Assembly (NCBI GenBank): GCA_902565645.1
Contig: CACFFJ010000007.1
Span: 1-47,418, forward strand
Source of the DNA: an uncultured Candidatus Actinomarina sp.
GTDB lineage: Bacteria > Actinomycetota > Acidimicrobiia > Actinomarinales > Actinomarinaceae
Length of the DNA: 47,418 nucleotides
Direction: 5' to 3'
The notes under the pieces: generated by a model
What the model was told of the DNA's origin: nothing
Databases searched by the model: none
Seen by the model: the letters and a program-made list of their open reading frames with translations, nothing else
In this document: positions 7,937 to 23,615 of the stretch, piece after piece
How the letters are laid out: each line of letters starts with the position of its first letter
Position numbering within the stretch: the first letter of the stretch is position 1
Position numbers and translations under genes: made by a program

Positions 7937-7970
7937 TTGATTGATATTTAAATCTAGTAAAAATAAAAGT

Positions 7971-8051
7971 ACCCGGAGGGGGAGTCGAACCCCCACATCC
8001 GAAGATACTGGATTTTGAATCCAGCGCGTCTGCCAATTCCGCCATCCGGGC
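7971..8051 (-). tRNA. tRNA-Leu (anticodon CAA)
   Basis: GCCCGGATGGCGGAATTGGCAGACGCGCTGGATTCAAAATCCAGTATCTTCGGATGTGGGGGTTCGACTCCCCCTCCGGGT; anticodon stem CTGGA/TCCAG, loop TTCAAAA, class II variable arm ATC-TTCG-GAT, T arm GGGGGTTCGACTCCCCC. Confidence 0.95.
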
Positions 8052-22625: not shown

Positions 22626-22862
22626 ATGGAATCTATGACTGCAATACTTATATCAGTTCATATTGTTGTGTCAATTGCACTTATTGCGTTAATTATGCTT
22701 AACAGTGGTAAAGGTGGAGGTTTATCTGATATGTTAGGTGGTCCTGGTGCTTCTGGAAATATTGGCCAAACCCTAGCTGAAAGAAATCTTAGTCGTATTA
22801 CTGCTTTGGTTGCGTTAATGTTTGCAGCAACTACATTATCTTTATTTTGGTTTCTTGACTGA
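22626..22862 (+). CDS. secG: preprotein translocase subunit SecG
   Basis: LIMLNSGKGGGLSDMLGGPGASGNIGQTLAERNLSRIT; two TM segments. Confidence 0.92.
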   Translation: MESMTAILISVHIVVSIALIALIMLNSGKGGGLSDMLGGPGASGNIGQTLAERNLSRITALVALMFAATTLSLFWFLD

Positions 22863-22866
22863 TAAA

Positions 22867-22950
22867 GCGCGGGTGGCGGAACTGGTAGACGCGCAGGATT
22901 AAGGATCCTGTGGGATAAAACCCGTGGAGGTTCGAGTCCTCTTCCGCGCA
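22867..22950 (+). tRNA. tRNA-Leu (anticodon AAG at 22901..22903)
   Basis: GCGCGGGTGGCGGAACTGGTAGACGCGCAGGATTAAGGATCCTGTGGGATAAAACCCGTGGAGGTTCGAGTCCTCTTCCGCGCA; anticodon stem CAGGA/TCCTG, loop TTAAGGA, class II variable arm GGG-ATAAAA-CCC. Confidence 0.93.
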
Positions 22951-22958
22951 CAGAAAAA

Positions 22959-23615
22959 ATGAGTAATAAAGAAACTATCGCAATTGTAAATGACCCAGAT
23001 GTTTCTCTTGGTTCCCTTGAAGATAATAAAATCAAGACTCTAAATGCTTGGGAATTAAATTGGGAAGATATGTCCTCTTCCAGTGATTATATAATTTTAG
23101 GTGGACACATGGGTGCCTATGATACTGATAAATATGAGTACCTATTGCCACAAAAAGATTGGCTATCTAGATCTGTAAAAAACGGTACTAAAATATTAGG
23201 AATCTGTTTAGGGTCGCAGTTAGTAGCTGACTCATTAGATGGAAAAGCATATCTTTCTGATCAAATAGAATTTGGTTTTAAAGATTTAAATTTTGTTAGA
23301 AATGATGAAATATTTTCCGATTTTTTAGGTACTGAAGTATTTACTTGGCATAGAGATACATTTGATATTCCATCCAAAGGAGAATTGATTGCTGAAACTA
23401 ATTTTCCACAGATATATAAAATAAACAAAACTTACTGTATTCAATTTCATCCTGAAGTAACAGTTGAACTTTTTGATAAATGGTATGACAGTAAAGTAAG
23501 TAAGAAAGAATTAAGAAATTATGATGTACAGAATACACGTAACAAATTAATAAAAAACGAAAATTTATTGAGTAAAAAAGTTAATAATTTTTATAAAAAG
23601 TGGAAAGAGAGTTAA
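22959..23615 (+). CDS. class I glutamine amidotransferase domain protein
   Basis: ILGICLGSQLVADSLDG nucleophile elbow and YCIQFHPEVTVE. Confidence 0.85.
   Translation: MSNKETIAIVNDPDVSLGSLEDNKIKTLNAWELNWEDMSSSSDYIILGGHMGAYDTDKYEYLLPQKDWLSRSVKNGTKILGICLGSQLVADSLDGKAYLSDQIEFGFKDLNFVRNDEIFSDFLGTEVFTWHRDTFDIPSKGELIAETNFPQIYKINKTYCIQFHPEVTVELFDKWYDSKVSKKELRNYDVQNTRNKLIKNENLLSKKVNNFYKKWKES

Follow-up and report, generated by a model that had tools for sequence, protein, structure and literature searches.

The window, by which we mean the whole 47,418-nucleotide stretch of Candidatus Actinomarina DNA analysed here, carries a leucine tRNA gene with the anticodon AAG between secG and a class-I glutamine amidotransferase gene (Table 1); genes encoding PGK, triosephosphate isomerase and a histidine phosphatase lie upstream. 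ARAGORN placed the tRNA at 22867-22951 on the forward strand, and Rfam model RF00005 matched 22867-22950 at 50.1 bits (gathering score 29; E = 7e-8). Direct reading gives an acceptor stem GCGCGGG/TCCGCGC with discriminator A and no encoded CCA, and an anticodon stem CAGGA (22894-22898)/TCCTG (22906-22910) enclosing the loop TTAAGGA (22899-22905), in which base 22901 is A34; on the combined evidence of ARAGORN, Rfam and reading, the gene has the class II cloverleaf, long variable arm, A73 and intact stems of a bacterial tRNA-Leu. A preliminary description of this DNA had proposed such a gene downstream of secG, with a perfect anticodon stem: the stem reads the same in our hands, both programs and recurrence in congeners show the gene to be real, and the stop of SecG (PF03840), at 22862, lies 4 nt before it.

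Table 1. Features discussed in the text; positions are those of the window unless a genome or locus handle is given.
Feature	Position	Strand	Basis or remark
secG, preprotein translocase subunit	22626..22862	+	PF03840 / TIGR00810; synteny
tRNA-Leu(AAG)	22867..22950	+	Rfam, ARAGORN, direct reading, conservation in 37/42 congeners
Class-I glutamine amidotransferase gene	22959..23615	+	PF00117
tRNA-Leu(CAA), further member of the reduced Leu set	7969..8051	-	ARAGORN, Rfam
tadA	C2:58045-58485 (G000); L031 1498-1956	- (L031)	only tadA in genome
Cytidine deaminase, altered zinc site	L249 = G000:C5:4457-4771	-	also L240, L243, L246, L248, L250

The amidotransferase ATG (22959) begins 8 nt past the tRNA discriminator. 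Packing is similarly tight at 24 further Actinomarinales loci, where the ATG follows the tRNA 3' end by about 5-14 nt, and neither there nor in the window is it preceded by an obvious Shine-Dalgarno sequence. Because the start codon lies so close to the tRNA, 3' processing of the tRNA may leave a near-leaderless amidotransferase mRNA.

The window comes from a draft MAG (864 kb, 31 contigs, 75% complete), which would be the one ground for reading the gene as an artefact of sequencing or assembly, or as a pseudo-tRNA; that reading is refuted, and left with practically no probability, by recurrence across independent assemblies, the anticodon arm GGTAGACGCGCAGGATTAAGG matching exactly in 37 of the 42 genomes of the genus-level group, too many for chance or sequencing error, and the tRNA recurring with intact stems in named single-cell and MAG records. 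These records, labelled Ca. Actinomarinales or Actinomarina and found through relatives of the neighbouring protein, have the same tRNA in the same place, and the full tRNA-Leu(AAG) sequences read differ at two positions only, both in the variable arm. The five congeners lacking the arm are MAGs 63-86% complete. Phage tRNA-Leu genes match at about 76-85%, the level of general tRNA-Leu similarity, with no sign of a phage source.

The preliminary description had suggested looking for a GAG tRNA-Leu elsewhere in the genome and comparing the anticodon across relatives. The GAG pattern occurs in none of the 42 congeners, the five without an AAG arm included, and AAG is the anticodon kept. A congener 93% complete (G037), whose 37 tRNAs we read and typed in agreement with the Rfam count, has a leucine set of AAG, UAG, UAA and CAA, with GAG and CAG absent from the full set, an arginine set of ACG, UCG, CCU and UCU, and a single proline tRNA, UGG; the window's genome has the same leucine and arginine sets. 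(A 'tRNA-Arg(tct)' called by ARAGORN in locus L004 is a repeat artefact.) The CUN leucine box of Actinomarinales thus consists of two tRNAs, AAG and UAG, without GAG or CAG, and the A34 gene stands in place of GAG, as in tRNA-Leu(IAG) of the Oenococcus and Streptococcus kind. Since neither a GAG nor a CAG tRNA-Leu exists, CUU and CUC need some other reader.

The same replacement occurs more widely. A pattern search of 296 genomes of the class found AAG tRNA-Leu in 54 (37 in the Actinomarina group, the other 17 spread over nine genera and eight families outside it) and GAG tRNA-Leu in 193, with no genome among the 296 holding both. Outside the Actinomarina group, none of the 17 AAG genomes has GAG, against 193 GAG-positive genomes out of 254 (P = 4e-12). 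Because five families (f3, f10, f12, f25 and f49) hold both states, in different genomes, the switch from GAG to AAG has probably happened several times in the class. The AAG genes of the nine other genera (L112, L113, L095-L102, L170-L176) resemble GAG tRNAs with G34 changed to A34, and within genus g21 both states occur, AAG in the species of G062 and GAG in that of G187. The preliminary description had offered reduction of the tRNA set in a small genome as a possible cause. Actinomarina has indeed lost GAG and CAG and kept only about 37 tRNAs, but genome size fails as a general cause, because AAG replaces GAG also in the nine genera with genomes of 1.6-4 Mb. Two full tRNA-Leu(AAG) genes lie in the phylum outside the class (L116 in G464, L117 in G332); two of four out-of-class pattern matches (G365, G524) were dropped because neither yielded a tRNA-Leu(AAG) call. 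According to a recent survey, bacterial tRNA-Leu(AAG) genes are almost all in Bacilli (PMC13249217), in line with the earlier remark on exceptions in some Firmicutes, the phylum of most known cases; the class of Actinomarinales would be a second centre.

The body of the Actinomarina tRNA appears to have a different history from that of the other AAG tRNAs. In class relatives the gene before tRNA-Leu(GAG) is secG, so that by synteny the window's gene occupies the GAG site: secG is followed by a GAG tRNA in G046, where the CAG tRNA adjoins fhaA, and by a GAG or GAG-derived AAG tRNA in f3, f10 and f25. In a profile test that left out position 34 and assigned all 61 control tRNAs correctly, the Actinomarina AAG tRNAs went to the CAG profile, by 36 nats over GAG and by only 3.5 nats over UAG, and all 15 other AAG sequences of the class went to GAG; the latter are thus, we infer, GAG tRNAs with G34 changed to A34, unlike those of Actinomarina. 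The nearest sequences to the Actinomarina gene are the CAG tRNAs of G046 and G051 (83% identity). A maximum-likelihood tree with position 34 kept groups it with these two (support 99/97), but once position 34 is masked the Actinomarina AAG and UAG tRNAs mix inside the CAG group. As the profile assigns a CAG-type body while GAG or GAG-derived AAG genes follow secG in relatives, the site of the GAG gene appears in Actinomarinales to be occupied by a tRNA with a CAG-like body, an arrangement that looks new.

We lean towards an account in which the GAG gene beside secG acquired the body of a CAG-type tRNA-Leu, by gene conversion or copying, after which C34 would have changed to A34. A possible, though rather less probable, history is that the old secG-linked tRNA-Leu(GAG) mutated in place from G34 to A34 and that its CAG-like body arose by drift, by convergence or through stems replaced in a separate event. 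Such an origin agrees with the presence of GAG or GAG-derived AAG genes after secG across several families of the class and with the fit of all other class AAG tRNAs to the GAG profile; approximately unbiased (AU) tests, for which some 84 columns are too few, rejected no alternative, the GAG clade included. It has to explain, however, four whole base pairs (2-71, 3-70, 4-69 and 29-41) that vary little or not at all among GAG tRNAs and are not of GAG type in the Actinomarina gene; in all 25 CAG tRNAs the pair C4-G69 is constant.

How is the CUN box read? The anticodon loops of tRNA-Leu(AAG) and tRNA-Arg(ACG), UUAAGGA and CUACGGA, share the form YUA[A/C]GGA, which makes them two candidate substrates of TadA; both fit the relaxed motif YUAMGRA known for mRNA targets of Streptococcus pyogenes TadA, an enzyme that edits both tRNA-Leu(AAG) and tRNA-Arg (PMC11472039). 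Competence on leucine cannot be assumed, since Escherichia coli TadA leaves S. pyogenes tRNA-Leu(AAG) unmodified in vitro (PMC11472039). In Actinomarina, TadA would deaminate A34 of tRNA-Leu(AAG) to inosine, as for tRNA-Arg(ACG); the resulting tRNA-Leu(IAG) would read CUU and CUC (and CUA), and tRNA-Leu(UAG) would read CUA and CUG. We regard decoding by TadA-made I34 as probable.

Codon usage, an indirect test, favours I34 over unmodified A34. CUC must have a reader (about 1,094 codons in 796 G037 genes), and the C/(C+T) ratio of the leucine box in G037 is 0.154, boxes served by a G34 tRNA ranging from 0.146 to 0.217. We set C- against U-ending codons in the ribosomal-protein and other highly expressed genes from eight genomes, which are related, so that counts are not independent and p-values are optimistic. 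Highly expressed genes avoid neither CUC (odds ratio 0.90, p = 0.28) nor CGC (1.06), nor the C-ending codons of boxes with a G34 tRNA, but they do avoid CCC (0.48, p = 7e-8), whose sole tRNA has U34; the difference between leucine and proline gives z = 3.6. CUC and CGC therefore behave like codons of G34 boxes, where unmodified A34 should have left a mark of avoidance. The halving of CCC is seen in the G037 ribosomal-protein operon (C1:530-557 kb) and in seven congeners. The preliminary description had left open whether TadA has an extended specificity or A34 is used unmodified, and it is the former that codon usage supports.

The candidate enzyme is itself unusual. A single tadA, the gene whose presence the preliminary description had proposed checking, is followed directly by three tRNA-Ser genes and tRNA-Arg(ACG). 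Its AlphaFold2 model (pLDDT 89.5) retrieves TadA structures as top Foldseek matches, the best being Bacillus subtilis TadA (TM 0.90), and phmmer matches the TadA entries 7cph and 2b3j. The best NCBIfam match, over the whole length, is the TadA equivalog NF008113, at 127.7 bits below the cut-off of 150. The expected HAE ... PCxxC (His, Cys, Cys) reads HAE ... PDxMC, with Asp86 at the place of E. coli Cys87. By predicted fold, sequence and neighbourhood the protein is a TadA homologue, with a metal site that departs from the family rule.

A protein search found PDxMC in the TadA of the window's genome and five congeners (6/6), against Cys in 20 TadA proteins read from class relatives and in E. 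coli and Staphylococcus aureus. The motif EPDxMC matched in 32 of 42 congeners, and all 28 of these that we read are TadA, with His56, Glu58 and Cys89 intact; since the motif itself selected these 28, evidence free of that bias comes from the first six together with a PF00383 search, in which the remaining ten congeners yielded cytidine deaminase and RibD but no Cys-type TadA. In those ten the tRNA-Ser/Arg cluster beside tadA is likewise absent from the assembly or cut; loss of tadA in some congeners is unsupported, the whole stretch being unassembled or interrupted by a contig end. We take matches to EPDxMC outside Actinomarina as chance: two that we checked have no TadA at the site, and in G078 TadA lies elsewhere and has Cys. 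An order-wide change from Cys to Asp at the first Cys zinc ligand of TadA looks new. The AAG anticodon does not require it, as ten other AAG genomes have TadA with the normal Cys.

The altered ligand could weaken or abolish TadA, and if the enzyme were inactive, A34 would stay unmodified and read CUU (weakly CUC), and superwobble by the U34 tRNAs Leu(UAG) and Arg(UCG) would serve the remaining codons, as happens in some TadA-less Mollicutes. We think this unlikely. It has in its favour the Asp in every Actinomarina TadA read, a U34 tRNA in both A34 boxes, and superwobble already in use, since a single U34 tRNA reads proline; decoding by unmodified A34 also has a bacterial precedent, reported from a streptomycete in which tRNA-Asp(AUC) decodes GAU (PMC9262613). 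Yet tadA is kept in highly streamlined genomes, the only assemblies without it being those in which its neighbourhood is absent or cut, and its median dN/dS of 0.12 indicates selection to work, with about 60 residues, HAE and the second Cys among them, invariant in all. Codon usage, too, shows the avoidance for CCC and not for CUC or CGC, and the pairing of Arg ACG with UCG is ordinary in low-GC bacteria with I34 (PMC4041420).

For the favoured inosine reading, a working His/Asp/Cys metal site in place of His/Cys/Cys is plausible, because Asp can bind zinc. Another deaminase of the order likewise deviates from its family pattern: Actinomarinales cytidine deaminase has PCG[ILV]S for PCGxC, with Ser at the last zinc-ligand Cys, and CAED or CGED for CAER, with Asp for Arg after the catalytic CAE; the RibD sequences that we read are canonical. 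Tentatively, then, an active His/Asp/Cys TadA may have two substrates, tRNA-Arg(ACG) and a CAG-derived tRNA-Leu(AAG), and, together with the cytidine deaminase, may form part of a lineage-wide rewiring of deaminase metal sites, perhaps in adaptation to surface seawater poor in zinc; the link to zinc scarcity is speculation.

To our knowledge, bacterial wobble inosine has been regarded as almost exclusive to tRNA-Arg, the leucine exceptions falling nearly all in Bacilli. Here, within one actinobacterial class, A34 has repeatedly taken the place of G34 in tRNA-Leu, and such a tRNA has become fixed in a marine order that is widespread. Together these form a natural series in which to study the gain of a second substrate by TadA, which came before the eukaryotic expansion of inosine. 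In an enzyme essential to E. coli, the fixed replacement of a zinc-ligand Cys poses a testable puzzle of its own.

Among known systems, the closest is tRNA-Leu(IAG) made by TadA in Lactobacillales, described for Oenococcus oeni, Streptococcus and Lactobacillaceae (PMC8266599, PMC11472039, PMC13249217). There, as in Actinomarina, AAG replaces GAG without co-occurrence, tRNA-Leu(UAG) is present, the loop falls within YUAMGRA and the genome is AT-rich. Unlike these Bacilli, Actinomarina belongs to a marine actinobacterial order, has a CAG-like body, has lost the CAG tRNA-Leu as well, and has a TadA with an Asp zinc ligand and no C-terminal extension; inosine is known in the tRNA-Leu of Lactobacillales, whereas I34 in Actinomarina is predicted from sequence. 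With the canonical tRNA-Arg(ACG)/TadA pair it shares the enzyme fold, the loop type and tadA beside tRNA-Arg(ACG), differing in a second presumed substrate with A35 for C35. Mollicutes without TadA, which decode with A34 in the absence of inosine (PMC3711424), likewise have a reduced tRNA set and rely on U34 tRNAs, but Actinomarina retains a conserved tadA. The nine other genera of the class have in common with it AAG for GAG, mutual exclusion and, in several, the secG site, and differ in their GAG-type body, normal-Cys TadA (in the ten genomes read) and genomes of 1.6-4 Mb. The Actinomarinales tRNA is real, and most likely it functions as the known tRNA-Leu(IAG) does, in a lineage new to this kind of tRNA and with a body of unusual descent.
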